Assembly: GCF_903644055.1 (NCBI RefSeq)
Contig: NZ_CAHJXD010000140.1
Location: 1-39,674, forward strand
Length of the DNA stretch: 39,674 bases
From: Sphingomonas bacterium
GTDB taxonomy: Bacteria > Pseudomonadota > Alphaproteobacteria > Sphingomonadales > Sphingomonadaceae
Reading direction: 5' to 3'
The position numbers were made by a program, and so were the translations under genes. Below are positions 2,801 through 22,904 of this stretch, piece after piece. Below the pieces are notes generated by a model. That model saw only the letters and a program-made list of their open reading frames with translations, searched no databases and was not told the origin of the DNA. How positions within the stretch are numbered: position 1 is the first letter of the stretch; each line of letters begins with the position of its first letter.

Positions 2801-3955
2801 TCATGCCGCGGGTTGAACGGCACCCTGTTCGTGATCGTAGAAGCTGAAGCGCGAACGAAGCTCGGCCATGTCGAAACCCAGAGCGGCGGGATCATATTCG
2901 TACCGGCCGTGCTTGTCCGCAGGCGTGTTGTGCTGCCAGGCGATCATCCGCTCACGCGTGGTATCCGCCAGCGGTTCACCCAGAGAGTCATAAAGCCGTT
3001 CGATCACCGGCATCGGATCATGCCGGAATTCGCTGAACGCTATATCGAAGAAACGATCCTCGTTGCCGTTCTGCCGGAACGCGGCGATGCGATGCAGGCC
3101 CTGGTCGGTCCAATCGATGTTCATCTTGGAAATATAGCCGACGTCGAGCGAGTCGGTGAAGGGCCGGGACAGCTCGATGTAGAGATCGATCACCGAAGGC
3201 ATGACCTTGGTAATGTCGCGATGCGTCATCCAATAACGCGCATCGGGGAAGACTTCGTCCAATGCCTCGATGAACAATATGTGGGAGGGATTTTTCAACC
3301 GCCAGCGGTTCGGCGGGCAGCGCCATTGCAGCAGCTTCAGTATCCGCTTCACATAGCGATAGGTCGGCACCAGATCGGCGTCGTTATTCAACCAGTGGAC
3401 ATAGGCCGGAATTCGGAGCGAGGCCTGGAAGATCTGCGACTTGAAGTCGTAGCCCATATAATATTGGCATTCCGTCGGCGCGGTCGGCGAAATCGGCAGC
3501 ATCATCTTCAGGCGTGGCGCGAGCCCATCCATAAACGACATTCTGGCCGCCTGCTCGGCGATGCGCGGGTCGCTGTGCTCGGTTGCCGCCTCGGGCGGCG
3601 GGCAGGGCGCGCTGCTTTCCCAAGCCCTCAGGCTGCGGACGGCCGGATCCTCGGCCAGCATGCAATGGAACGCCGTCGAACCGGTACGCGGCAGACCAAG
3701 CCCGATCAGCGGCGCCACGATCTCCTCGGCCTCGATCTCGGGGTGGATCGCGTACCAATGCTCCACCTGGAGCCGCCATCCGAGCAGTTCGACGATCTGA
3801 TGTTCCGCGAAACCGCGCCCCTGCTCGTTGAGCCGCGCTTCGGCGTCGATCGACGACACGAGCCGCTCGAGGCCCTCGCGATAATCTTCCGATCCGAAAT
3901 CGTCATATCCGTTGGCGAGCCGCGCGCGCTCAAGGAGCGTAGATACCTTATCCAT
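2801..3955 (-). CDS. Sulfotransferase family protein (Sulfotransfer_3 type)
   Basis: A 384-residue protein of the PAPS-dependent sulfotransferase fold. The 5'-phosphosulfate loop is visible as GLPRTGSTAF at about residues 87-96. The 3'-phosphate-binding region follows in the middle of the protein, around KNPSHILF and the segment FPDARYWMTHRD. The start at 3955 is supported by GAGGA four to five bases upstream. It is the first gene of a two-gene operon with the DUF7064/7065-like protein. Members of this group are common in sphingomonad catabolic islands and often lack a known substrate. Some may act as CoA- or nucleotide-binding proteins and not as true sulfotransferases. A sulfate donor pathway is not visible in the window. 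Confidence 0.85.
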   Translation of the reverse strand: MDKVSTLLERARLANGYDDFGSEDYREGLERLVSSIDAEARLNEQGRGFAEHQIVELLGWRLQVEHWYAIHPEIEAEEIVAPLIGLGLPRTGSTAFHCMLAEDPAVRSLRAWESSAPCPPPEAATEHSDPRIAEQAARMSFMDGLAPRLKMMLPISPTAPTECQYYMGYDFKSQIFQASLRIPAYVHWLNNDADLVPTYRYVKRILKLLQWRCPPNRWRLKNPSHILFIEALDEVFPDARYWMTHRDITKVMPSVIDLYIELSRPFTDSLDVGYISKMNIDWTDQGLHRIAAFRQNGNEDRFFDIAFSEFRHDPMPVIERLYDSLGEPLADTTRERMIAWQHNTPADKHGRYEYDPAALGFDMAELRSRFSFYDHEQGAVQPAA

Positions 3956-4257: not shown

Positions 4258-4680
4258 CTATTGCCGGCATTGCGGCGGCCGCGCCGCGAGACGCGCATTC
4301 CAGGCCGCGAGCGCATCTTCGCCGCGCTTCGGGTCGGCGGCGACGACCTGCTCGATCGCGACTCCCAGCGCATTGCGCTCCGTCTCGAGCGAGGTGAAGA
4401 CGATGCGCTCGTCGGAGCAATCCTCGGCGAGAACCTCGACATCACCCCCGTCGCCCGTCGGGTGGGCGGCATCATGCGTGATCGCCGCGCGGGCATTGCG
4501 CCAGGCGCGATAGGCGGCGCCGAGGCGGAAGGAGGGCGATGGCGCGCGTTCGCCGCGCAACGCGATCGTATCGCTTGGGCTCGCGTCGACCGCCGCCAGC
4601 CCGCGCGCGAATTCCCGCCGGTCGACGATCGCGGCCGGGCGATCTGCCGCGGCCAGCAGCAGCAGGGCCGCGAGCGGCAT
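4258..4680 (-). CDS. Small exported protein of unknown function
   Basis: A 140-residue protein starting MPLAALLLLAAADRPA, which looks like a short signal peptide. The ATG at 4680 overlaps the cytochrome c stop codon as TGATG, which argues for translational coupling and for this start over an upstream in-frame one. The mature part has two cysteines (one near residue 88, one near the C-terminus) that could form a disulfide in the periplasm. It has no heme motif. I do not recognise a family. Its position, last in the amine oxidase-cytochrome c unit, suggests a structural or assembly role in that electron-transfer module. Confidence 0.65.
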   Translation of the reverse strand: MPLAALLLLAAADRPAAIVDRREFARGLAAVDASPSDTIALRGERAPSPSFRLGAAYRAWRNARAAITHDAAHPTGDGGDVEVLAEDCSDERIVFTSLETERNALGVAIEQVVAADPKRGEDALAAWNARLAARPPQCRQ

Positions 4681-5075
4681 CAATGGCCCGGCAATACCGT
4701 CGGCGTCTCGGCCGCCGAACCCTTGCGCGCGGCGGCGACCGTCGCGGTGGACACCGGGGCCGCATGATTGCTCCACGCCGAGCGGACGTAGCTGAGCACC
4801 GCCGCGACCTGCTCGTCCGTCAGATCGCTCGAGAAGCTCGGCATGCCACCGCGTCCCTTGAGCACCGTCCCGGCGACCACGTCCGCCGGCCCTTGCACGA
4901 AAGCGTCGCCATCGAGCGCGGGGAAGGCTCCCGGAATGCCCTTGCCGGTCGGCTGATGGCAGGCCGAGCAATTTTCGGCGAAGATCTGCGCGCCCTTGGG
5001 GCCCTGCGCGCGCGCGGCCGCGCCGCCGAAGCTCAATACGAGCGCCGCGAGCGCCAGCGTCCTGATCCCCGTCAT
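4680..5075 (-). CDS. Periplasmic c-type cytochrome, class I
   Basis: A 131-residue monoheme cytochrome. A signal peptide (MTGIRTLALAALVLSF...ARAQ) is followed by the heme motif CSACH at residues 36-40 and a likely axial methionine at 78 in GGMPSF. The start at 5075 has GGGGAGA about seven bases upstream. The gene begins 16 bases after the amine oxidase stop. This arrangement strongly suggests that the cytochrome is the electron acceptor of the exported flavoprotein. Known precedent: NicA2 nicotine oxidoreductase passes electrons to the neighbouring cytochrome CycN in Pseudomonas putida. The last 30 residues (Ala/Thr/Val-rich) extend beyond the usual core. Confidence 0.9.
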   Translation of the reverse strand: MTGIRTLALAALVLSFGGAAARAQGPKGAQIFAENCSACHQPTGKGIPGAFPALDGDAFVQGPADVVAGTVLKGRGGMPSFSSDLTDEQVAAVLSYVRSAWSNHAAPVSTATVAAARKGSAAETPTVLPGH

Positions 5076-5091
5076 CCTCTTCTCTCCCCGT

Positions 5092-6687
5092 TCAGGCGGC
5101 ATGGACGCGCTTGTGCAGCTTGCCGATCTGCTGCCAGGCGGACTCGATCCCGCCCTCCTGCCAGCCCGTGATGTAGCTCATATGCTCGCCCGCGAGGTAT
5201 AGCCGCCCGTCGGGTTCGCAGAGCGTCGGATAATATTGGGCGCGGCCTTCCTCGGTCCATTGCGCCCAGCCGCCCATGTTGAAGGGCACGCGGTGCCAGG
5301 CGATCGAGAAGGCGCTTTCGCAGCTCTCGGCATATTCGGGGAAGGTCTTTGCACCGCTCGCCAGCGCGAATTGCTTGCGCGCCTCCAGGCTCATCGCGCT
5401 GACCCTCGCCGCCGGCGCGCCATGCGGATAATAACCGAGCAGCACGCCCTTTTCGCCCAGCCAGTTGGACGACGGGAAGCTGATCGACTGGATCGCCGGA
5501 TCGTCGACATAATGATGGCCGCCGTAGATATTGTATTTTTCTTCCCAGAAGCGGGTCTTCATCTGCAATCCGATCTTGCAGACCAAAGCGTAGGCGACGC
5601 CGCCCATCGCCTCCTTGAACTTGGGCGAGCATTGCACGTCGATCGTCTTCAGGACCGAGAGCGGGATGGTGCAGACGCAATAATCGGCGGTGACCGAGCC
5701 CCGCTGGCCATCGGGCGTCAGGTACGAGACGGTGACCTTGTCGGCATCCTGCGCGATCTTCTCGACGATGTGGTTGAGCCGGATCGTGAGCTTGAGGTTG
5801 CGCACGAAGCCGGCGGGGAGCTGATCCATGCCGCCGACCGGCTCAAACATCGTGCGCTGCTGATCGAAGGAGGAGACCGATTTCAGCACGCGCCACGTCT
5901 GGGATTGCAGGATGTCGGTCAGCTTGTGCGGGGTGGATGGCTTGCCGGGGCCGGGATCGACCCCCGCGCCGGGATTGACGTCGAAGCCCCGTCCCTCGGT
6001 GCCGACATATTTCAGGTCGTCGGGGGTGAGATAGCCCTCGGAGCGCAAATAATCGAGAAAAAGCTCCTTGTCGCCGGGACCGAATTCCTGATCGAGCGAG
6101 CCCTGGCGGACGCATTTGGCGAGCATCTCGCTCGCACGGCCGCGCATGTCGGCGGCGACCTCCTGCTTGCGCACCGGCTTCGCGGCGAGCGGGCCCCTGC
6201 CCTTCTCGAAGTTGATGAAGCTATGGTCGTTGTCGTTGTTGAACAGCTCGAGCGGCACCTTGAACTTGCGCGCATAGCCGATGTAGCCCTGGTGCATGTA
6301 GGGAATGCGCCACGGGCCGGGGTTGATGTAATGCCCCTCGTCGAAGGTGCAGACCTGCGGCTCGCCGCCGAGCTCGGTAAGCTTGGTGCCGCGCCGCGCC
6401 GTGTAGGAGCGGCCGCCGACCCGATCGCGTCCTTCCAGCACGGTGACATCATAGCCCGCGTTGGAAAGCTCATAAGCGGAGGTCAGCCCCGCGACGCCGG
6501 TTCCGAGCACGATGACCTTCTTGCCCTTGCCCCCGCCGGCAAGCTTGGGCGGCTCCGCGCCGGCCGAGCCGATACCGAAGCCCAGCGCCTGCATGCCCGC
6601 CATCAACAGCGACGTGCCGCCCACCGCGCTCAACTGCTCCAGAAAGCTGCGGCGGCTCAAACCGCCAGCCAAGGCCGATGCCATCAT
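5092..6687 (-). CDS. Tat-exported flavin-dependent amine oxidase/dehydrogenase
   Basis: A 531-residue FAD protein of the flavin monoamine oxidase family. The twin-arginine signal is SRRSFLEQ at residues 11-18, followed by a hydrophobic stretch. The dinucleotide-binding motif GTGVAG is at 62-67, with acidic Glu85 ending the second strand and RVGGRSYT after it. The C-terminal FAD motif is LYLAGEHMSYITGWQEGG. The double ATG at 6687/6684 has a GGGGGGAG ribosome site; the frame continues upstream but without signal-peptide sense. It is followed by a cytochrome c gene, which suggests a periplasmic dehydrogenase that uses a cytochrome and not oxygen. The substrate may be an amine or a related C-N or C-C compound and is not predictable. 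The upstream TetR gene and a pair of inverted sites suggest repression. Confidence 0.88.
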   Translation of the reverse strand: MMASALAGGLSRRSFLEQLSAVGGTSLLMAGMQALGFGIGSAGAEPPKLAGGGKGKKVIVLGTGVAGLTSAYELSNAGYDVTVLEGRDRVGGRSYTARRGTKLTELGGEPQVCTFDEGHYINPGPWRIPYMHQGYIGYARKFKVPLELFNNDNDHSFINFEKGRGPLAAKPVRKQEVAADMRGRASEMLAKCVRQGSLDQEFGPGDKELFLDYLRSEGYLTPDDLKYVGTEGRGFDVNPGAGVDPGPGKPSTPHKLTDILQSQTWRVLKSVSSFDQQRTMFEPVGGMDQLPAGFVRNLKLTIRLNHIVEKIAQDADKVTVSYLTPDGQRGSVTADYCVCTIPLSVLKTIDVQCSPKFKEAMGGVAYALVCKIGLQMKTRFWEEKYNIYGGHHYVDDPAIQSISFPSSNWLGEKGVLLGYYPHGAPAARVSAMSLEARKQFALASGAKTFPEYAESCESAFSIAWHRVPFNMGGWAQWTEEGRAQYYPTLCEPDGRLYLAGEHMSYITGWQEGGIESAWQQIGKLHKRVHAA

Positions 6688-6830: not shown

Positions 6831-7577
6831 TCAGCGGCGCTGACACGCGGCATGCGCTGTCGCGCCGACATGGCTTAAACTCTTCGCGCGCGCGTCGCGG
6901 ATACCTAGCGTTATCAGCCTTGCTTCCGCGCACAGCAAGCGATCGATATGGGCGGACTCGTCCGAAACGCCCTGGTCCTTCATCGAAGCATGAAAGTTGG
7001 CGGTGGTGATTACGGTCGCCAGCCGCTCGAACCCCGTCAGCATCACGGTGGCGAGAAGCAGATTATCCGCGCTCGCATCCGCCGAAACGCTGTCCGTCTG
7101 CCGCAGCAGCAGATGGCTCAGCGGGTAGGAAACACGGTTTCGATAATCGACGAAGCGCTGGTCGCCGGCGTCGGCAAAGCTGTTGCGCAGGTGCAGGATG
7201 CGCGCATGCCGATGCCAGAACAGGTAATGGGCGCGGAGAAAATCGCGGCAATGCTCGTCCAGATGCTCATCCGGCCAGCGAATTCGCAGCCGATCGAGGA
7301 AGGCCTCGTCCGCCGCCTCCATCACCCTGTTCAGCGCGGCGAGCACCAGATCGCCCAGATCGGGGAAGTATAGGTAGAGCGTGGTCATGCCGACCGATGC
7401 TTCGCGCGCGACGCTGCTCAACGTGATCGGCGCATCCTGCTGCGGCTTATCGAGCAGGCACAATGCCGCCCTGAGGATGCGCTCGCGCGTCTCCAGCCCC
7501 TTGCGGCCGAGCCGCTGCCCGAGGAGGTTGTGGCTCACCTCCTGGGGACGGGGCTTCGGCAGGCTTTCGATCAGCAT
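6831..7577 (-). CDS. TetR/AcrR family transcriptional regulator
   Basis: A 248-residue regulator. The N-terminal helix-turn-helix lies at about residues 30-75, with the characteristic segments RERILRAALCLL, SSVAREASVGMTTLYLYFPDLGDL. The C-terminal two thirds would be the ligand-binding helical domain. The start at 7577 lacks a strong Shine-Dalgarno. The gene sits between the aldehyde dehydrogenase gene (36 bases upstream) and the amine oxidase gene (143 bases downstream) on the same strand, and probably controls one or both. Inverted sites in the downstream gap are candidate operators. Confidence 0.9.
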   Translation of the reverse strand: MLIESLPKPRPQEVSHNLLGQRLGRKGLETRERILRAALCLLDKPQQDAPITLSSVAREASVGMTTLYLYFPDLGDLVLAALNRVMEAADEAFLDRLRIRWPDEHLDEHCRDFLRAHYLFWHRHARILHLRNSFADAGDQRFVDYRNRVSYPLSHLLLRQTDSVSADASADNLLLATVMLTGFERLATVITTANFHASMKDQGVSDESAHIDRLLCAEARLITLGIRDARAKSLSHVGATAHAACQRR

Positions 7578-7613: not shown

Positions 7614-9080
7614 TCAGGCGGCGATGCCGATCGCCTTGGTCGCGAGATATTCGTGAAAGCCCTCGAGGCCCCATTCCTTGCCGATACCGGATTGCTTGTA
7701 GCCGCCGAACGGCAGATCGACATCGATCGGGAGACCGCCGTTGACGCCGATCGTTCCGCTGCGAATGCGCCGCGCGATCCTGAGCGCGCGTTCGGGATCG
7801 CCCGAGCGCACCGCGCCCGATAGGCCGTAATCACTGTCGTTGGCGATGCGGATCGCATCTTCGTCGTCCTCGAACGGGATCACCACCAGCACCGGCCCGA
7901 AAATCTCCTCGCGCGCGATCTCCATGTCGTTGGTGACGTCGACGAAGCAGGTCGGCTCGATGAAGAAGCCCTCGCCCTTGTCGGTCACCACATTCCCGCC
8001 GGCGAGCAACCGCGCGCCTTCGGCCTTGCCGCTCTCGATGTAGGACATCACCCGTTCGCGCTGCCGCGCCGAGATCAGCGGCCCCATCACATTGGCCGGG
8101 TCTTCCGGATCGCCCCACATGCTGGAATAGGCCGCATATGTGTGCTCCAGCACCGCGATCGCCTCCTCATAGCGGCTGCGCGGCACCAGCAGGCGGGTCA
8201 GCGTGGCGCAGCCCTGGCCGGCATGGAAGCAGACGATCGACTGCGCCACCGCCATCGCGAAATCGGGCGTGTCTTCCAGCACGATCGCCGCCGATTTGCC
8301 GCCAAGTTCGAGGAACACCCGCTTCAGCGTCGCCGCGCCTTTCTCCATGATCCGCTTGCCGACCCCGGTCGAGCCGGTGAAGCTAATCAGATCGACCCGT
8401 TTGTCGGTCACGAGCATCTCGCCGAGCAGAACCGGATCGCTGCCGGTGACGACGTTGATGACGCCGGCCGGAAAATCGATCTCGGCGGCGAGATCGCCGA
8501 AGATCGCGCTCATCAGCGGCGTGTCCGGCGCCGGCTTGATGATGACGGTGCAGCCGACCAGCAGCGCCGGGATCACCTTGCCGATCGTGATGTAAAGCGG
8601 CGCGTTCCAGGGCGTGATGACGCCGACGACGCCGATCGGCTCCTTCACCACGATCCGCGTGGTGTTCATGCCGAACAGCGTGCTGTGCCCCATTGGCTTT
8701 TCCCACTCGATCGAATCGAAGATGTCGAACAGCCGGTGGACGAAGCCGAGCGGACCATCGACCTGTGCCATCGCGGTCGCGCCCGGCGCCGATCCGACTT
8801 CATGCCGCGCGATATCCGCGAGCAGATCGCGATTGGCTTTCAGCCTCTCGACCAGCTTGGCCACGAGCCCGCGGCGCTTGTCATGATCGGTCGCCCAGTC
8901 GGTCTCGTCGAAGGCGCGGCGCGCGGCGGCGATCGCCTCGTCCATGTCCGCGGCCGAAGCATCGGCGGCGCGGGCGATGACTTCGCCCGTCCATGGCCCG
9001 ATATCCTCATAGGTGGCGCCGCCCGCCGCGTCGCGCAGCTTGCCGTCGATATAGAGCTTGCCGTCCGGAAGGGTCGCCAT
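7614..9080 (-). CDS. NAD(P)-dependent aldehyde dehydrogenase
   Basis: A 488-residue aldehyde dehydrogenase of normal length. It has Asn159 in ITPWNAP, the general base Glu258 in ELGGKS, the nucleophile Cys291 in HAGQGCATLTR, and the FTGSTGVGK cofactor segment near 234-242. Ribosome site AGAGGAAAG precedes the ATG at 9080. It oxidises an aldehyde to the acid. The amine oxidase encoded downstream would release an aldehyde in the periplasm, so this cytoplasmic enzyme could act on the product after uptake. That link is inferred from order only. It is preceded by an SDR gene 52 bases upstream, probably in one operon. Confidence 0.93.
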   Translation of the reverse strand: MATLPDGKLYIDGKLRDAAGGATYEDIGPWTGEVIARAADASAADMDEAIAAARRAFDETDWATDHDKRRGLVAKLVERLKANRDLLADIARHEVGSAPGATAMAQVDGPLGFVHRLFDIFDSIEWEKPMGHSTLFGMNTTRIVVKEPIGVVGVITPWNAPLYITIGKVIPALLVGCTVIIKPAPDTPLMSAIFGDLAAEIDFPAGVINVVTGSDPVLLGEMLVTDKRVDLISFTGSTGVGKRIMEKGAATLKRVFLELGGKSAAIVLEDTPDFAMAVAQSIVCFHAGQGCATLTRLLVPRSRYEEAIAVLEHTYAAYSSMWGDPEDPANVMGPLISARQRERVMSYIESGKAEGARLLAGGNVVTDKGEGFFIEPTCFVDVTNDMEIAREEIFGPVLVVIPFEDDEDAIRIANDSDYGLSGAVRSGDPERALRIARRIRSGTIGVNGGLPIDVDLPFGGYKQSGIGKEWGLEGFHEYLATKAIGIAA

Positions 9081-9132
9081 TGGTCTTTCCTCTGCTGCGT
9101 CGGCCCGCGTGGAAGAGGCCGGCGGAAATGGT

Positions 9133-9876
9133 TCAGTCGGGCACGCGGCTCCGGAATCGTACCACGCCGACGTTCACGTCGGGCGGCAGATCGAGCAGCA
9201 TGCGGAAAATCTGCGTCGTGGACTGATATTGGGAGACGCCGCGCGCCATCAAGTCCAGCCCTCGCTTCGCTGCCTCCTCGAAGAAACGGCCCATCGCCAT
9301 AGGGTCCATCTCGGGCACCGTGTCCGGCCCCATCATCGGGCCGGCGCGCACCGTCGTCACGCGGATGCCCTTGTTGGCGAGTTCGTGCTGAAGGTGCGTG
9401 CCGAACGTCTCGAGCCCGGCCTTGGTCGATTGGTAAAGCGTGAGATGCGGGAACGCCTCCTCGACCGATTCCGAACTGAGATTGATAATATGCCCGTCTC
9501 GATTCAGCATCGGGATCGCCGAGCGGGTGCACAGGATCGGGCCGGCCAGGTTGGTAAGCAGCATGCCCAGGATCTGCTCGTCGGTCGCCTCCTCCAGCAG
9601 GAAAGGCTTGAAGACCGCGGCGTTGTTGATGAGCGCGTCGATCCTGGGATGGTGCTCGGCGATCGCCGCGAAGGCGGCCCGCACCGAGTCAGGCGATGTC
9701 ACGTCGCATTCCACGGCCAGCGCCCCCGCGCCGATCCCGTCCGCCACCGCCTTCACCTTAGCCAGCGACCGACCGAGCAGCACCACCGTTTCACCCTCGC
9801 CCGCGAAGCGCTGCGCCAGCGTGCGGCCGAGGCCGCCGTTGGCGCCGGTGATCACGATAATCTTGCCCGGCATCAT
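9133..9876 (-). CDS. Short-chain dehydrogenase/reductase
   Basis: A 247-residue classical SDR: TGANGGLG at residues 10-17, NNAA at 84-87, serines at 134-135, and YQSTK with Tyr148 and Lys152. The frame is open far upstream, but the double ATG at 9876/9873 lies right before the cofactor strand and has GGGTGAGA before it, so this start is preferred. It is the first gene of the minus-strand block that continues with the aldehyde dehydrogenase. Its promoter must lie in the divergent region shared with the DUF35 gene. Substrate unknown. Confidence 0.88.
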   Translation of the reverse strand: MMPGKIIVITGANGGLGRTLAQRFAGEGETVVLLGRSLAKVKAVADGIGAGALAVECDVTSPDSVRAAFAAIAEHHPRIDALINNAAVFKPFLLEEATDEQILGMLLTNLAGPILCTRSAIPMLNRDGHIINLSSESVEEAFPHLTLYQSTKAGLETFGTHLQHELANKGIRVTTVRAGPMMGPDTVPEMDPMAMGRFFEEAAKRGLDLMARGVSQYQSTTQIFRMLLDLPPDVNVGVVRFRSRVPD

Positions 9877-10086
9877 TCTCACCCATCGACTGCGTACAGA
9901 CATGACGCCCCGGGCGCGATCCGGCAACGCCCCGACCATCGCCGCGACGATAACCGCCTGCCACGCGAGCGCCATAACGCTGGCACCCGCAACCGTCGCA
10001 ATCGTCCTGCGCGTGCCGTTCCCGTCAGGATCGCGGGGGCGGTTATTGGCGGGGGTGCTTGCAACGCCTTCACGAAGCCCCGAAAC

Positions 10087-10132
10087 CTTATGCGTGGCGG
10101 CGCTTCCGAATGGGTGCGGCGCCACGCGTAAG
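10087..10132 (+). promoter_or_regulatory. Long hairpin overlapping a ribosome binding site
   Basis: The arm at 10087-10103 (CTTATGCGTGGCGGCGC) pairs with 10116-10132 (GCGGCGCCACGCGTAAG) over 17 positions: 15 Watson-Crick pairs, one G-U and one mismatch, with a 12-base loop. The right arm contains the first bases of AAGGAG (10130-10135), the ribosome site of the 24-codon ORF at 10146. In RNA the stem would hide this site. In DNA it could be a large operator for the divergent SDR and DUF35 promoters. Confidence 0.5.
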
Positions 10133-10145
10133 GAGATGCCAGTCG

Positions 10146-10220
10146 ATGAACGCGCGCAGCCCCATCCCGGCCCGACCGGCGCATGCGCCGGATGCGGCGC
10201 CGCCGACCGGGCGGGACTGA
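10146..10220 (+). CDS. Possible 24-residue leader ORF upstream of the DUF35 gene
   Basis: ATG at 10146 lies ten bases after a good AAGGAG and the frame runs 24 codons to a TGA at 10218-10220, two bases before the ATG of the DUF35 gene. The peptide (MNARSPIPARPAHAP...) is Pro/Ala/Arg-rich and has no recognisable family. Close stop-start spacing would allow reinitiation at the DUF35 gene, which itself has only a weak ribosome site. Short ORFs arise easily in GC-rich DNA, so this is tentative. Confidence 0.35.
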   Translation: MNARSPIPARPAHAPDAAPPTGRD

Positions 10221-10222
10221 TC

Positions 10223-10627
10223 ATGGCGGCACCGCGGCCTCTTCCCCGGCTCGATCCGGACAACCGCTTCTTCTGGACGAGCGGCGAGGATGGTGTTCTT
10301 CGCCTCCTGCGCTGCGCAGCCTGCGATGCCTTCGTTCATCCGCCGCGTCCGCTTTGCCCGCACTGCCTGTCGGAGGATGTCGCCCCGGCGGCCATGCCGG
10401 GCACCGGGGTGATCTACAGCTACACCGTGAACCACCAGAAATGGCATCCGGGGCTCGACGTGCCCTATGTGATCGCGCGGGTCGCGATCGACGGGGCGGC
10501 CGATGTGTATCTGACCACCAACATCGTCGGATGCGATCCGCAAACGGTGGATATCGGCGACAAGGTGCGCGTGGTGTTCGAGCAGCAGGACGACGTCTGG
10601 TTCCCCCTGTTCGAGAAGGTGGCCTGA
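10223..10627 (+). CDS. DUF35 zinc-ribbon/OB-fold protein
   Basis: A 134-residue two-domain protein: a rubredoxin-like zinc ribbon with CAAC at residues 31-34 and CPHC at 45-48, then an OB-fold that starts near GTGVIYSYTVNHQ. The start MAAPRPLPRLDPDNRFFW matches the usual N-terminus of this family; an in-frame ATG at 10136 is too close to its Shine-Dalgarno. The gene is directly followed (one base gap) by a thiolase-fold gene. Known precedent: DUF35 proteins bind Cys-less thiolase homologues such as Ltp2 and enable retro-aldol cleavage, or assist SCP-x type thiolases and MaoC hydratases. This fits a partner subunit role. Confidence 0.88.
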   Translation: MAAPRPLPRLDPDNRFFWTSGEDGVLRLLRCAACDAFVHPPRPLCPHCLSEDVAPAAMPGTGVIYSYTVNHQKWHPGLDVPYVIARVAIDGAADVYLTTNIVGCDPQTVDIGDKVRVVFEQQDDVWFPLFEKVA

Positions 10628-10628
10628 C

Positions 10629-11789
10629 GTGAGCGGCGGCGATGCCTTCATCACGGGTATCGGCCAGAGCGAGATCGGGGTCCGTCTCGAACGGCATCCG
10701 CTGCTGCTCACCGTCGATGCGGTTCGGGAGGCGCTCGCCGAATCCGGCCTGACTCCCGCCGATATCGACGGGGTCTCGACCTATCCGGGGCGGATGACGG
10801 TGCCGTCGGGTTTCTCGCCGGTGGGCTCCGAGGATCTGGTCGATGCGCTGCGGCTGAAGGTCCGCTGGCTCAACGGGGGGTTCGAGATCAGTTCGCAGCT
10901 CGGCGCGGTGGTGGCGGCGGCGGGTGCCGTCGCGACCGGGCAGGCACGGCACGTAATCTGCTTTCGCACCGTCTACGAAGCGGCGGCGCTCGCACGGCCC
11001 GAGGAATATCCGCCGGCGCGGCCCGGGCGGGTGGATGGCTGGACGCAGTGGCTGATTCCATTCAACGCCTTCTCGGCGGCGAACTGGACCGCGCAATATG
11101 CCATGCGCCACATGAAGCATTACGGCCTCACCCGCGAGCAATTGGCCCAGATCGCGCTGACGGACCGCAAGCACGCCGCGCTCAATCCGCGCGCGTTGGT
11201 CCGCGAACCGTTGACGATGGACCAATATATGGAAGCGCGGATGATCTCTTCGCCCTTCTGCCTGTATGACTGCGATCGCTACACCGATGCCTCCACCGTA
11301 CTGATCGTCTCGGCCGGCGATGCGATCGGGGACGTCAAGTGCACGCCGATCCGGATCGCGGCGATGGCCTATGCGGTCGATCGGCATAGCTGGGACCAAG
11401 CCGAATGGATGGCCGCATATCCGACCGGCCGGCAGCTTTGGAAGAACACCGATTACACGCCCAAGGATGTCGATACCGTCCAGCTTTACGACGGTTTCAG
11501 CTTCCAGACGATCACATGGCTGGAGGGGCTGGGCTTCTGCGATGTGGGTGAGGGCGGCCGGTTCATCGAAGGCGGGCATCGCATCGCTCTCGATGGCGAA
11601 TTGCCGCTCAACACCTTCGGCGGGCAGATCGGTGCCGGGCGGCTGCACGGCTTCGGCTTCGCCCATGAGGCGGTGACGCAGTTGCGCGGTCTCGGCGGTG
11701 CCCGGCAGATTCCGGGCGATCCCCGGGTGGCGGTCGCGGCGTCGGGCGGTGGCCCGCTCGCTACCGCGCTGCTGTTGGCAAAGGATTGA
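10629..11789 (+). CDS. Thiolase-fold (SCP-x/Ltp-like) protein lacking both catalytic cysteines
   Basis: A 386-residue thiolase-superfamily protein of the lipid-transfer/SCP-x branch. It starts at GTG 10629, one base after the DUF35 stop. At the place of the nucleophilic Cys it has EISSQLG (residues 86-92), and at the C-terminal Cys site AASGGG. The true thiolase at 21389-22561 has NRHCAGG and MCAGGG there. YDGF (Tyr287) and LHG (His340) are retained. Ltp2-type retro-aldolases of steroid side-chain degradation also lack the Cys, use tyrosines, and need a DUF35 partner. An aldolase function is therefore plausible but not shown. In the Ltp2-like enzymes I recall, a Tyr precedes the HG motif; here the spot is Arg-Leu. 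Confidence 0.85.
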   Translation: MSGGDAFITGIGQSEIGVRLERHPLLLTVDAVREALAESGLTPADIDGVSTYPGRMTVPSGFSPVGSEDLVDALRLKVRWLNGGFEISSQLGAVVAAAGAVATGQARHVICFRTVYEAAALARPEEYPPARPGRVDGWTQWLIPFNAFSAANWTAQYAMRHMKHYGLTREQLAQIALTDRKHAALNPRALVREPLTMDQYMEARMISSPFCLYDCDRYTDASTVLIVSAGDAIGDVKCTPIRIAAMAYAVDRHSWDQAEWMAAYPTGRQLWKNTDYTPKDVDTVQLYDGFSFQTITWLEGLGFCDVGEGGRFIEGGHRIALDGELPLNTFGGQIGAGRLHGFGFAHEAVTQLRGLGGARQIPGDPRVAVAASGGGPLATALLLAKD

Positions 11790-11869
11790 GGGGTGCGGCG
11801 GTCAATCATCGCCGTCGCGCTCGACGCGACCGGGCCCGAGCGACGGCCGGGATCGTTGCATTCCCGAGG

Positions 11870-11886
11870 TCGATGATAGTCATCGA
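11870..11886. promoter_or_regulatory. Inverted repeat upstream of the amidohydrolase gene
   Basis: TCGATGA-TAG-TCATCGA is a perfect 7-base inverted repeat with a 3-base spacer, located 62 bases before the amidohydrolase ATG in the 159-base gap after the thiolase-fold gene. It is a reasonable candidate operator or small hairpin. Confidence 0.4.
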
Positions 11887-11948
11887 TAAAATCACACGCC
11901 ATGGCGCCCCGTTTGGCGGTATGGACATTGCAAGGACAGGAGGCGGCT

Positions 11949-13268
11949 ATGAAGATGGAAGAGATGGTGCTCATCAGCGTCGATGATCACATCACCGAAC
12001 CCGGCAACATGTATGAGCAGCATCTTTCAGGAGAAGCGCTCGCAACCGCGCCCAAGCTGCTCACGCTGCCGAACGGCACCAATTTGTGGGAATATCAGGG
12101 CAAGAAGATCCCGTCGGTAGGCCTCAACGCCGTCGTCGGCCGCCCGCCCGAGGAATATGGCATGGAGCCGACCTCGTTCGCGCAGCTCCGCGAGGGCTGT
12201 TACGATGTCCATGCACGCGTCAAGGACATGAACATCAACGGCATGGCGGCCTCGCTCAACTTCGCGAGCTATGCCGGGATCGATGGCGGCCTGTTCATCG
12301 GCGCCCCCGACAAGGGCCAGGCGCTCACGCATCTGCGCGCCTACAATGACTGGCATGTCGACGAATGGTGCGGCGCGTATCCCAGCCGCTTCATCCCCTG
12401 CGGCCTGCTGCCGCTGTGGGATATGGACGCCACCGTCGCCGAGCTGAAGCGCCTGGCCGACAAGGGCTGCTATGCCGTTTCCGTCAACGATAACCCCACG
12501 GCGCGTGGCCTGCCGAGCATCCACAACGCCTATTGGGATCCGATGTACAAGGCGGCCGCCGACAACGGCACCGTGCTGTGCCTCCACATCGGCCAGGGCA
12601 ATGCCTCGCCGCATCCCTCGATGGAGACCCCCATCGAGGCGTGGATCACCACGATGCCGATGGCCGTATCGCTGGGGGCGGCCGACTGGCTGAACCTCGC
12701 CGCGCTCCAGCAATATCCCTCGCTGCGGATCGCGCTTTCCGAATCGGGGATCGGCTGGATCCCGTACCTGATCGAACGCGCCGATTTCAGCCATGGCCAG
12801 CACAAGGCGTGGACCCATTCGGAGGCGATCTTCAAAGGCCGCAAGCCGAGCGACGTTTTCAAGCAGCACTTCCTGAGCTGCTTCATCGACGATGCGTTCG
12901 GCCTCAAGAATGTCGACGCCATCGGCATCGACAACATCGCCTATGAGTGCGATTATCCGCACTCCGATACGCTGTGGCCGCATGCCCCGGAACGGCTGTG
13001 GGAGACGATCGCGCATCTCAACGACGAACAGATCGACAAGATCACGCACCTCAATGCGATGCGCGATTTCCGGTTCGAGCCGTTCCAGCACCAGGCCAGA
13101 GAAGAGCTGACGGTCGCGGCGCTGCGTCGCAAGGCCGCAGAGGAAGGCGTGGATGTCTCGCTGAAATCGAGCGGGGGTGCGGCGCCGCTGGCGGAGGGCG
13201 AGCAGGCGCGTCCGGTTACTTCCGGCGACATCGTCAACATGTTCCGGGCGCACGCCGAGGCCGCTTAG
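11949..13268 (+). CDS. Amidohydrolase family protein (amidohydrolase 2, ACMSD-like)
   Basis: A 439-residue TIM-barrel metal-dependent hydrolase or decarboxylase. The first strand carries SVDDHITEP (His14), the form seen in this subgroup in place of HxH. Further metal or substrate residues are likely in LHIGQG, ALSESGIGW and ECDYPHSDT. The start at 11949 is set by GGAGG six bases upstream; in-frame codons before it have no ribosome site. The last 50 residues are a charged tail. Related enzymes decarboxylate aromatic acids or hydrolyse C-C or amide bonds. It follows the DUF35-thiolase pair on the same strand, after an inverted repeat, and ends at a strong hairpin. Confidence 0.88.
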   Translation: MKMEEMVLISVDDHITEPGNMYEQHLSGEALATAPKLLTLPNGTNLWEYQGKKIPSVGLNAVVGRPPEEYGMEPTSFAQLREGCYDVHARVKDMNINGMAASLNFASYAGIDGGLFIGAPDKGQALTHLRAYNDWHVDEWCGAYPSRFIPCGLLPLWDMDATVAELKRLADKGCYAVSVNDNPTARGLPSIHNAYWDPMYKAAADNGTVLCLHIGQGNASPHPSMETPIEAWITTMPMAVSLGAADWLNLAALQQYPSLRIALSESGIGWIPYLIERADFSHGQHKAWTHSEAIFKGRKPSDVFKQHFLSCFIDDAFGLKNVDAIGIDNIAYECDYPHSDTLWPHAPERLWETIAHLNDEQIDKITHLNAMRDFRFEPFQHQAREELTVAALRRKAAEEGVDVSLKSSGGAAPLAEGEQARPVTSGDIVNMFRAHAEAA

Positions 13269-19967: not shown

Positions 19968-20953
19968 CCGACCGGCGTGGCCGGCGATCCCACCGCGCCG
20001 GGCAGGTTCAGCGGCGGTGCGGTCAGCAGGAAATGCGCCCGGCGATGCGTCGCGAGCCAGGGCGCGATGCCGCCGAACCACCATAGCTCGCCGAGATGGA
20101 TGCCGAGCTTGACGAGGCAATGCTCGTGGAGCGGATTGCGCGCCCGATCGGTGCAGCGCTCGGCGCCGGCGACCTTCTCGACCATCGGATTATCGGCACA
20201 GATCGCGGCAAGACCCGACCGGTCTATCCAGTCGAGCAGCGCCCGGTCGCTGCCGTCCAGTCCCGGACAGGCGGCCATCGCCGCAGGATCGACATGCTTG
20301 CCATCCCGCAGCAGCAGATCCGCATAGCCCGAATACAGGCAGAGGAAATCGCCCTCCTCCACCGCAGCGCCTTGGGCGGCCATCGCCGTCCTCAAGGCCT
20401 CATGGCCGACAAGCCCCGCCGGATTTCCCGCTGCGCGGATATCCACCAGCACACCGCGGCCCTGCACGCATGTCCGCGCCAGATTCTCGATCCCCAGCGC
20501 CTTCGCGTGCGGCGGCGTGCCCGCGCCCGGCTGCACGAAATCCGTGTCCGATCGATAGCCATTGTAGAAGATATGTTCGGCGACGCCGTCGGCGTCGGCG
20601 TCGAAGCTCACGCCATAATGGCTGAGCCCATCCCATTGCGACGAATATTGCAGGTCCATCGTCACGCGATCGTCGTTGATGATATCGGTGTTGCCGCCGC
20701 CGATCGTCCAATCATACATCGCCCGGCTATCGCTGCCGGTCGTCGCTGCCAGCGTGGGGGGATGGCGGCCGGGGAAAATCTGGCTTTTCGGGTGGTCGAG
20801 CGGCAGGCCGAGCAGAAACGCATGCCCCTCGCGCGCCTCGGCGATCGCCCTCAGGCGCACCTTCGGCGTCACCAGATTCATCCGGCCGATCTGGTCGTCC
20901 TCACCGAATGCGCCCCAGTTCGAGCCTTCGGGTCGTCGAAGCCAGCGTCCCAT
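19958..20953 (-). CDS. Cyclase family protein (kynurenine-formamidase-like fold)
   Basis: A 331-residue member of the long branch of the cyclase/formamidase family (PF04199). It has the N-terminal GEDDQIGRMNLVTP that is usual for this branch. The metal-binding region reads SSQWDGLSHYG; KynB-like enzymes have HxGxHxD-x3-H there, so the first His pair is replaced, as often seen in this branch. Later segments are VLVDIR and FLCLYSGY. The last gene of a thiolase-VOC-cyclase operon, it starts 18 bases after the VOC gene with no strong ribosome site, so translation may be coupled. Possible role: hydrolysis of a ring or lactone-like intermediate. Confidence 0.87.
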   Translation of the reverse strand: MGRWLRRPEGSNWGAFGEDDQIGRMNLVTPKVRLRAIAEAREGHAFLLGLPLDHPKSQIFPGRHPPTLAATTGSDSRAMYDWTIGGGNTDIINDDRVTMDLQYSSQWDGLSHYGVSFDADADGVAEHIFYNGYRSDTDFVQPGAGTPPHAKALGIENLARTCVQGRGVLVDIRAAGNPAGLVGHEALRTAMAAQGAAVEEGDFLCLYSGYADLLLRDGKHVDPAAMAACPGLDGSDRALLDWIDRSGLAAICADNPMVEKVAGAERCTDRARNPLHEHCLVKLGIHLGELWWFGGIAPWLATHRRAHFLLTAPPLNLPGAVGSPATPVGTV

Positions 20954-20971
20954 GCGGCCAGGGTATCCGGG

Positions 20972-21340
20972 TCAGCCCAATTTGCAGGCGCAGAGTTTGT
21001 TGCCGTCGAGATCGCGGAAATAGGCCATATAGAAGCCCGGTCCGCGCTCGCCCGGAGCGCCCTCGTCGGTCGCCCCCAAGTCCATCGCCTTGGCATAGAA
21101 GGCGTCGACCGCGGCGCGATCGGGCATGTCGAGCGCGATCATCGCGCCATTGCCGACCGTCGCGGCGCCGCGATCGAAAGGCTGCAAGACCCCGAGCACC
21201 AGCTTTCCGTCACGCGCGAACAGCGCGCCGCCGCGCGGGTGATCCATCATCTTGGTCGCCCCCTGGGTGCCGAGCAACGCGCTATAGAAAGGTATCGCCT
21301 TATCGAGATCATTCGAGCCGATGGTCGCATAGCTGATCAT
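20972..21340 (-). CDS. VOC (glyoxalase/bleomycin resistance/dioxygenase) family protein
   Basis: A 122-residue single-module vicinal-oxygen-chelate protein: ISYATIGSNDLDKAIPFYSALLG opens the first beta-alpha-beta motif and GFYMAYFRDLDGNKLCA closes the second. GAGGAG precedes the start. It lies 48 bases after the thiolase gene on the same strand. Members bind a metal and act as lyases, isomerases or binding proteins; the standard first metal His is absent from the first strand here (ATIGSND), so a catalytic metal site is uncertain. Confidence 0.88.
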   Translation of the reverse strand: MISYATIGSNDLDKAIPFYSALLGTQGATKMMDHPRGGALFARDGKLVLGVLQPFDRGAATVGNGAMIALDMPDRAAVDAFYAKAMDLGATDEGAPGERGPGFYMAYFRDLDGNKLCACKLG

Positions 21341-21388
21341 TGTCGAAGCTCCTCGTTGTCATGCAGCGCAGATGCGCGGAAAAGCGCG

Positions 21389-22561
21389 TCAAACTTCGAT
21401 CAGCACCGCGCCGGCCTGGCCGCCGCCCGCGCACATCGCCGCGATGCCCAGCCCGCCGCCCCTACGCTTGAGATCGTTGATGAGCGTGATGATCATGCGG
21501 CCGCCCGAAGCGGAGATCGGATGACCGATCGAGCAGCCGCTGCCCGAGACGTTCACCACCTCCTCGTCGAGGCCCATCGTCCGGCATGCGCCGAGCGGGA
21601 CCGCGGCGAACGCCTCGTTGATTTCCCACAGCTTGATGTCGCCGGCCTTATGGCCGGTCCGTCCCAGCAGCTTCTCGGCGACGAGCGGCACCGATACGCC
21701 CGTCCGCGCCGGATCGATGCCGAGCGACGTCCAGCCGAGGATCTTCGCGAGCACCTGCCGCCCCTCGCTTCCGGCGATTTCAGCGCTGGCCACGACCAGC
21801 GCGGCAGCGGCATCGTTCACGCCGCTCGAATTGCCCGCGGTGATCGAAAAGCCCTCGATTTCGGGATGCAGCACGGCGAGCGCCGCGAGCTTTTCCATCG
21901 AGGAACCGCGACGCGGATGCTCGTCGATCAGGAAATCACGCTCGGATCCGTCGGCGTCGCGCACGCGGACCGGCACGATCTCGTCGACGAAATGCCCCTT
22001 GTCGATCCCGGCGATCGCGCGCTCATGCGAACGCAGCGCCCAGGCATCGAGCTCCTCGCGGGTGAGGCCGACCTCCTTGGCCGCGTTCCAGCCGACCGTG
22101 ATCGACATGTCCTTGTTCGGCGCGTCCGGCCGATCCGGATGGGTCGCGGGGAACCACCAATCCTGCCATTCGCCGGTCCAGGGATCGCGCTGCTGCATCC
22201 GCGGCGTCATGGATGCGCTCTGCACCCCCCCGGCGACGATGACATGCTCCATCCCAGATGCGATCGCGCCGGCCGCGATGCCGACCGCCGAAAGCCCGCC
22301 GGCGCAATGCCGGTTCACCGCCATGCCCGCCGCTTGCATGATCCCGAGTTCCACCGCCGCATGACGCGCGATCGCCCCGCCGCCGGCCAGCGACTCGGCG
22401 AGCACGACGTCATCGATCCGCGCGGGATCGAAGCCCGAACGCTCGATCGCCGCGCGAACCACGATCGCGGCGAGCGTTTCGGGCGGCGTATTCGCCAGCG
22501 AACCCTTGCGCGCGGTGCCGACCGCGGTCCGCGCCGCGCTCACGATCACGGGGCTGGTCAT
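21389..22561 (-). CDS. Acetyl-CoA C-acyltransferase (thiolase)
   Basis: A 390-residue complete thiolase that cleaves or forms 3-ketoacyl-CoA. Nucleophile Cys86 in NRHCAGG, His347 in SIGHPISASGGRM and Cys377 in MCAGGGQAGA. NEAF is present in the usual place (WEINEAFAAVP). The ATG at 22561 is seven bases from AGGAG; a GTG at 22567 is too close to it. It is the first gene of the operon with the VOC and cyclase genes. With the TesB thioesterase it shows that CoA thioesters are handled by this region. It is likely the last step of a beta-oxidation-like sequence. Confidence 0.93.
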   Translation of the reverse strand: MTSPVIVSAARTAVGTARKGSLANTPPETLAAIVVRAAIERSGFDPARIDDVVLAESLAGGGAIARHAAVELGIMQAAGMAVNRHCAGGLSAVGIAAGAIASGMEHVIVAGGVQSASMTPRMQQRDPWTGEWQDWWFPATHPDRPDAPNKDMSITVGWNAAKEVGLTREELDAWALRSHERAIAGIDKGHFVDEIVPVRVRDADGSERDFLIDEHPRRGSSMEKLAALAVLHPEIEGFSITAGNSSGVNDAAAALVVASAEIAGSEGRQVLAKILGWTSLGIDPARTGVSVPLVAEKLLGRTGHKAGDIKLWEINEAFAAVPLGACRTMGLDEEVVNVSGSGCSIGHPISASGGRMIITLINDLKRRGGGLGIAAMCAGGGQAGAVLIEV

Positions 22562-22904
22562 CGTCACTCTCCTAGATTTTCGTGGACCCTACGCCTTTGT
22601 CGGCGATGTGGCACGTCGATCGGTGTGCGTTAAGCCCCCTCTCGATCATCGCCGGGGCGGCGTTCGCCTCAGGGACGATGGAAATCAGCTTTCACGCGCG
22701 CGAGCCTCGCTTTCTGTTGAGATCATCGTCGTGATGGGCAAGGTAAGCGGCAAGACGCGTGGTTACGGCGTTTCGGACGGGATAGGAGCGGGTCATGTCT
22801 GGCAGGGCGATCGCGATCATGGCGGCGAGTGAACGGGTCGAAGCTTTGCCGCGACCGCCCTCCGCCGCCCGGATCACGCACCGGCTGCCGAAGGCCTGAA
22901 TCCC
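22562..22904. other. Divergent intergenic region of 343 bases
   Basis: It lies between the thiolase operon (minus) and the dehydrogenase operon (plus) and should hold both promoters. An open minus-strand frame of 61 codons (22692-22877) starts with GTG, has no ribosome site and no recognisable content. I see no strong palindrome and no gene. Confidence 0.45.

Follow-up and report, generated by a model that had tools for sequence, protein, structure and literature searches.

A flavin amine oxidoreductase, a cytochrome c and a small third protein as a probable periplasmic amino acid dehydrogenase module in a Sphingomonas bacterium

A 39,674-nucleotide stretch of DNA from a Sphingomonas bacterium (assembly GCF_903644055.1, contig NZ_CAHJXD010000140.1), referred to here as the window, carries on its minus strand three consecutive genes for a flavin amine oxidoreductase (AO), a cytochrome c and a small protein. 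Judging from sequence comparisons, we think it rather likely that this trio is a periplasmic alpha-amino-acid dehydrogenase module. An earlier interpretation made from the letters of the window alone (the sequence-only reading) had proposed an oxygen-independent periplasmic dehydrogenase with a possible new component; its redox part is probably right and is known in kind, not new. All three genes lie at the positions that this reading had claimed:

5092..6687, minus strand: flavin amine oxidoreductase (AO), similar to the L-amino acid oxidase (LAAO) of Rhodococcus opacus, with a twin-arginine translocation (Tat)-type N-terminus, SRRSFL; matches PF01593 and the solved structure 2jae
4680..5075, minus strand: monohaem class I-like cytochrome c with a Sec-like leader; CSACH at residues 36-40 (bases 4970-4956)
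4258..4680, minus strand: third gene, 140 amino acids, product probably exported, matching no known family and with two conserved cysteines; its ATG overlaps the cytochrome stop codon

The gene anatomy was directly observed. AO (531 amino acids) matches PF01593 at 2.6e-54, and its SRRSFL motif is followed by a hydrophobic stretch, together judged by eye to be a Tat-type signal. A spacer of 16 bases (5091-5076) separates AO from the cytochrome gene, whose product (131 amino acids) has a single CSACH motif and matches the Pfam families Cytochrome_CBB3 and Cytochrom_C. The cytochrome TGA and the following ATG overlap by one base (TGATG), which is why the third open reading frame was placed at 4680-4258, and translational coupling of these two genes can fairly be inferred.

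The sequence family of AO could likewise be read directly. Among the 60 solved sequences that matched AO at E<=1e-10, the best relative was R. opacus LAAO (2jae; 285 bits, 1e-83, residues 51-528), and the snake and ancestral L-amino acid oxidases and similar enzymes ranked next (114-133 bits). The entries 7u6l and 7e7h, which we take to be pseudooxynicotine amine oxidase (Pnao), reached 63 bits and aligned over the dinucleotide-binding stretch only (residues 48-109). The sequence-only reading had compared AO with NicA2. NicA2 remains a fair analogue of mechanism but was not the nearest relative found: since R. opacus LAAO is the best match over the whole length, NicA2 and Pnao are more probably mechanistic analogues than nearest relatives. 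A structure model of AO was poor (pLDDT, the predicted local distance difference test score, 52.9) and was left unused.

We aligned 86 AO copies, described below, with the corresponding stretch of R. opacus LAAO. R127 (chain position 83), K371, W464 and W509 are the same in all 86 copies, and the position of Y420 holds tyrosine in 77, phenylalanine in eight and asparagine in one; the conservation of these active-site positions is a direct observation. In R. opacus LAAO the aligned arginine and tyrosine presumably hold the substrate carboxylate. Because these two residues are kept and R. opacus LAAO is the best solved relative over the whole length, an alpha-amino acid is our best guess at the substrate class.

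The 86 copies comprised that of the window, 52 from a search of 98 genomes (its own and those of relatives), 18 from a class-wide search in which 19 of 385 genomes matched at E<=1e-40, six from five Caulobacteraceae contigs, and nine from nine plasmid records out of the 37 that had a match. The class-wide search scored the first three candidates per genome, and additional copies there may have been missed. AO pieces of less than 1,100 aligned bases were excluded (for example G095:C172, G051:C13:11-604, G533:C379 and a split match in G029). Neighbouring cytochromes were recognised by similarity to that of the window or, for a single copy, by annotation.

A cytochrome c gene adjoins 47 of these 86 AO copies, and the conservation of this linkage was directly observed. 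It is found beside 14 of 14 copies with at least 50% identity to the window AO, 39 of 40 with at least 40%, and 47 of 53 with at least 345 bits, compared with none of the 33 below that score (a cut picked after viewing the table). In the AO tree, the window's clade of 14 rows and another clade of 29 rows are both entirely cytochrome-positive, and the cytochrome label changes five times, versus 27.7 in shuffles, when 50 rows are labelled. Three of these rows (L084, L089 and L090) were labelled by a CxxCH motif alone and are excluded from the count of 47; L090 resembles a real cytochrome, and L084 and L089 look like chance. Most rows without a cytochrome belong to distant branches or are tandem copies in a single other family. 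Tandem arrays of five (L080, 4947-13291) and four (L081, 5477-12189) AO paralogues, with no recognised cytochrome, were seen in two genomes that belong to a single other family within the order.

The window's own genome, a draft of 2.4 Mb in 297 contigs, has six AO copies; a cytochrome accompanies five of them, and the contig ends 628 bases from the sixth. The AO-cytochrome arrangement recurs in Alphaproteobacteria and also occurs in Comamonas and Deinococcus, with the order reversed in Deinococcus proteolyticus, where the cytochrome gene comes before AO. The sequence-only reading had held that homologues mostly without the cytochrome would speak against it; this is the pattern far from the window, below 345 bits, and not the pattern near it, at identities of at least 40%. 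Its pairing of a probably exported flavin amine oxidoreductase with a cytochrome is supported by the genomic evidence.

We infer the export, the substrate class, the electron flow and any role of the third protein as follows. The Tat system would export AO together with its flavin adenine dinucleotide (FAD). AO would then oxidise the C-N bond of an alpha-amino acid, or of a compound with that group, to an imino acid, and its electrons would pass to the cytochrome c encoded next to it and on to the respiratory chain, in place of H2O2 formation. The imino acid would hydrolyse to a 2-oxo acid and ammonia, a step that elsewhere in the family would be aided by a neighbouring, leader-bearing RidA-type protein. 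In the subclade, the third protein would serve as an accessory, acting in the same compartment in docking, assembly or protection of the pair.

Several observations weigh against this reading. No recognised cytochrome adjoins 39 of the 86 AO copies, and hence the enzyme type does not require one. The lysine near flavin N5, which supports the reaction with O2 in oxidases, is present in 86 of 86. No RidA-type match lies within 6 kb of the window AO, and a RidA-type gene is also found within 6 kb of 11 of the 39 other AO copies. Finally, the neighbours of the trio (aldehyde dehydrogenase, short-chain dehydrogenase/reductase (SDR) and thiolase-like protein) would suit another amine too.

The copies with no recognised cytochrome and the universal lysine would fit an ordinary, H2O2-forming amino acid oxidase, as the R. 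opacus and snake enzymes are, in which case the cytochrome would serve otherwise and the linkage would be historical. We consider this quite improbable. Linkage is complete in the two large clades (14/14 and 29/29), spans several bacterial groups and is seen in both gene orders. According to the main text of PMC12224317, moreover, an adjacent cytochrome c is the stronger predictor of dehydrogenase function, and most dehydrogenases also keep the N5 lysine.

Further genes lie around the trio:

6831..7577, minus strand: possible TetR-type regulator, 143 bases upstream of AO; TetR_C_38 and TetR_N matches both under the Pfam cut-off; a candidate module member only
7614-9080, minus strand, as AO: aldehyde dehydrogenase, upstream of AO
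9133-9969, minus strand, as AO: SDR, upstream of AO
2801-3955: Sulfotransfer_3 protein, 302 bases downstream of the third gene
Downstream of the trio, with the Sulfotransfer_3 protein: DUF7064 protein

The part of the window around AO at 7614-13268 (aldehyde dehydrogenase, SDR, thiolase-like protein and amidohydrolase) resembles a catabolic region. At 20096-22633 the window also has an 845-codon open frame without a Pfam match, which may be an antisense frame.

With such neighbours, the same redox module could act on an amine without an alpha-carboxylate (an alkaloid, polyamine or aromatic amine) and feed the aldehyde dehydrogenase and the SDR, both upstream and on the strand of AO. The AO sequence, however, groups with the L-amino acid oxidases, and R127, aligned with what we assume to be the carboxylate site of R. 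opacus LAAO, is invariant. The aldehyde dehydrogenase, SDR, TetR and sulfotransferase-like genes of the window have no close match beside five Caulobacteraceae AO copies, and none of the TetR, aldehyde dehydrogenase and sulfotransferase genes, the only ones sought, was found at five of the six third-gene loci. Although the combination of Tat signal and cytochrome is also that of NicA2 and Pnao in the main text of PMC12224317, we regard a substrate of this kind as unlikely and keep to the alpha-amino acid.

RidA-type genes lie within 6 kb of 20 of the 47 cytochrome-positive AO copies (16 on the same strand within 1.2 kb). Genes for TonB-dependent receptors lie within 6 kb of 16 of these 47 and of seven of the 39 AO copies without a recognised cytochrome. 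As both are also found near cytochrome-free copies, neither marks cytochrome pairs. Near the window AO, no gene for a TonB-dependent receptor was found. Two RidA-type proteins that were checked matched PF01042 at 54 and 63 bits (cut-off 27), and both have hydrophobic leaders. Another locus of the window's own genome (L053) has a paralogous AO-cytochrome pair with a RidA-type gene, recognised by similarity only. By annotation, plasmids of Microvirga, Comamonas, Ketogulonicigenium and Sulfitobacter carry the order AO-cytochrome-RidA, and those of Mesorhizobium and Rhizobium tropici carry AO-cytochrome with no adjacent RidA. A Metabacillus plasmid (L142, 4977-8240) has AO, a Rid-type hydrolase, tatA and tatC in a row and no cytochrome, a Gram-positive version with its own export genes; the presence of tatA and tatC beside this AO fits Tat export of the AO family.

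We take the third gene to be real and narrowly distributed. Caulobacter sp. S45 (L096; the strain of NZ_LMUL01000011.1) has a homologue, matching at 48% over 128 residues with E 2e-23, directly behind an AO-cytochrome pair whose members are 74% and 61% identical to those of the window, and a profile search found the gene in five of 219 Caulobacteraceae genomes, S45 and G818 included. On account of the S45 homologue and these five genomes we regard the frame as a gene and reject a chance open reading frame. Differences from S45 number 58, 50 and 84 at the three codon positions over 139 codons, an excess at the third (chi-square p 5e-5), with nonsynonymous and synonymous rates (dN and dS) of 0.56 and 1.46; by this comparison the third gene is under purifying selection. 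Two cysteines are invariant in the six third-protein sequences. Against the gene, a simple codon-based gene picker favoured an antisense frame (4261-4767) over the third open reading frame, and the leader of the window's third protein is short and has no Lys or Arg.

Outside these genomes the searches found little. Below E 0.01 the only match in the window's own genome was the gene itself. Nine of the 98 genomes matched at E<=0.01, its own alone strongly and the others at 5e-4 or weaker, mostly with internal stops. The 397 genomes of the family gave one match, the gene itself; the class-wide search gave three of 385 at E<=0.001, two of them weak; and the plasmid records gave none. The third protein matched no model in Pfam, NCBIfam or PHROGs, and neither did the six members of alignment A4 at E<=0.1.

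The order AO-cytochrome-third gene was found in the window, S45, G832, G824 and G866, that is, in five of the six genomes with the third gene, which supports the suggestion of the sequence-only reading that this gene may be a new component. The AO match of G824 contains one stop, and the G866 contig starts in the last codons of AO and continues with the cytochrome, the third gene, a cytochrome remnant and a RidA-type gene. The remnant between third gene and RidA-type gene at L168 (1164-1369; 50% over 44 residues) looks like what would be left of a second AO-cytochrome-RidA unit after truncation. The idea that the third protein replaces RidA is weakened because L168 holds a cytochrome, the third gene and a RidA-type gene together. 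In S45 (L096, 7215-11893) one strand carries AO, cytochrome, third gene, a penicillin-amidase-type enzyme (PF01804), a second AO and a second cytochrome; the amidase-type neighbour, seen at this one locus only, would be suited to freeing amino acids or amines from amides. The neighbour of the third gene in G818 is a glutathione S-transferase gene, with the AO-cytochrome pair on a separate contig; the homologue so placed lies at L148 (1492-2586), away from any AO.

Nine genomes have a window-type AO, one of which was seen by the last codons of AO only and three of which were found through the third gene itself. Six of the nine have the third gene, and no match to it was found in G817, G819 and G820. 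We give even odds to the third gene being a passenger, that is, a small secreted protein outside the redox reaction that is co-transcribed by chance in a few genomes. It is not behind the pair in four of the nine genomes, G818 among them, and has neither a family nor a fold match. On the other hand, five of its six occurrences are directly behind the pair, its sequence shows purifying selection and two invariant cysteines, and the window, S45 and G818, which group together in the AO tree, all have it, whereas their three nearest neighbours do not.

A model of the third protein built from two sequences (pLDDT 78.5; pTM, the predicted template modelling score, 0.75) is a helical bundle of six helices. 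No match in the PDB was found at E<=0.001, and the best VIA-align Z score, 6.4, is one that helical models usually reach. When PDB sequences were searched with a profile, TALE-repeat chains came up (up to 3e-15). We judged these an artefact because one 28-residue stretch was summed over repeats; no stretch passes alone. Somewhat tentatively, the third protein may be a dedicated subunit or adaptor, for example one docking the flavoenzyme to the cytochrome, in a dehydrogenase of three components that is passed between Caulobacteraceae and the window's lineage. It is the one new element of the trio, and a role with the pair is our proposal.

An exchange of AO between Caulobacteraceae and the window's lineage is likely, because the window AO resembles Caulobacteraceae copies more than it does any copy found in its own genus (74% identity to the S45 copy versus 61% to the best same-genus copy) and the reverse holds for a helicase gene of the window, with 74-88% identity to six same-genus genomes versus 50-57% to seven Caulobacteraceae genomes. 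The tetranucleotide profile of the window correlates at 0.968 with the other contigs of its genome, versus 0.57-0.86 for seven Caulobacteraceae loci. A mis-binned contig was rejected, since helicase identity and tetranucleotide profile both fit the window's own genome. An old paralogue that disappeared elsewhere would be a less simple explanation of AO than exchange.

If the trio is an amino acid dehydrogenase module, the rule that links a Tat signal and an adjacent cytochrome to amine dehydrogenases would also hold for the branch of the L-amino acid oxidases. Many bacterial genes that now bear this name, perhaps including the auxin-related one of Gluconacetobacter, would then encode respiratory dehydrogenases. 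The third protein, easy to delete, would offer a concrete candidate for a so far undescribed accessory of AO-cytochrome pairs. We have not seen a partner of this type described for any flavin amine oxidoreductase. We found no publication on the kinetics of a cytochrome-coupled LAAO-type enzyme in a search that covered main texts and few subscription journals.

Among known systems, R. opacus LAAO (2jae) is matched by the window AO over its whole length, with the aligned Arg, Lys, Trp, Trp and Tyr kept. Unlike the window AO, it is an oxidase by name, and we know of no cytochrome partner for it. Chlamydomonas LAO1 with the RIDA-type LAO2 resembles the AO family in oxidising amino acids extracellularly with a RidA-type partner. 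It differs from the window trio in being eukaryotic, in forming H2O2 and in working without a cytochrome, as far as described in the relevant passages of PMC10805672.

A closer parallel is the lao-cccA-ridA cluster of Gluconacetobacter diazotrophicus PAL5. The passages of PMC5053998 on this cluster describe it as part of one transcription unit and its LAAO as a protein of 533 amino acids with a Tat signal and 34% identity to R. opacus LAAO. They report that Tn5 in lao abolishes auxin formation from tryptophan, cite a level of 5% auxin in cytochrome-maturation mutants, and note a similar gene order in Caulobacter crescentus and Xanthomonas; the electron-transfer role of the cytochrome was proposed there, not measured. 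The window likewise has an R. opacus LAAO-like Tat enzyme followed by a cytochrome c gene, the enzymes being compared by description. The third gene of that cluster is ridA and that of the window is unrelated; as no RidA-type gene lies within 6 kb of its AO, the window is a variant of lao-cccA-ridA and not a member.

The window also shares the flavin amine oxidase (FAO) domain, the Tat-type signal, the adjacent Sec-type cytochrome c and the proposed electron path with NicA2-CycN-Pnao of Pseudomonas putida S16 and the other cytochrome c-using FAO dehydrogenases of PMC12224317. That set came from the top NicA2 BLAST hits, and the main text of the paper does not mention LAAO, Rhodococcus or Caulobacter. 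By its matches to solved sequences, the window AO appears nearer to R. opacus LAAO. In the same text, a Tat signal with an adjacent cytochrome c predicts an amine dehydrogenase, backed by kinetics, and enzymes with Tat only are mostly fast with O2. For NicA2, PMC12272882 gives a rate with O2 of only 28 M-1 s-1. Judged by its sequence features, the window trio fits this published rule (PMC12224317), and its kind of module is already in print, also in PMC5053998.

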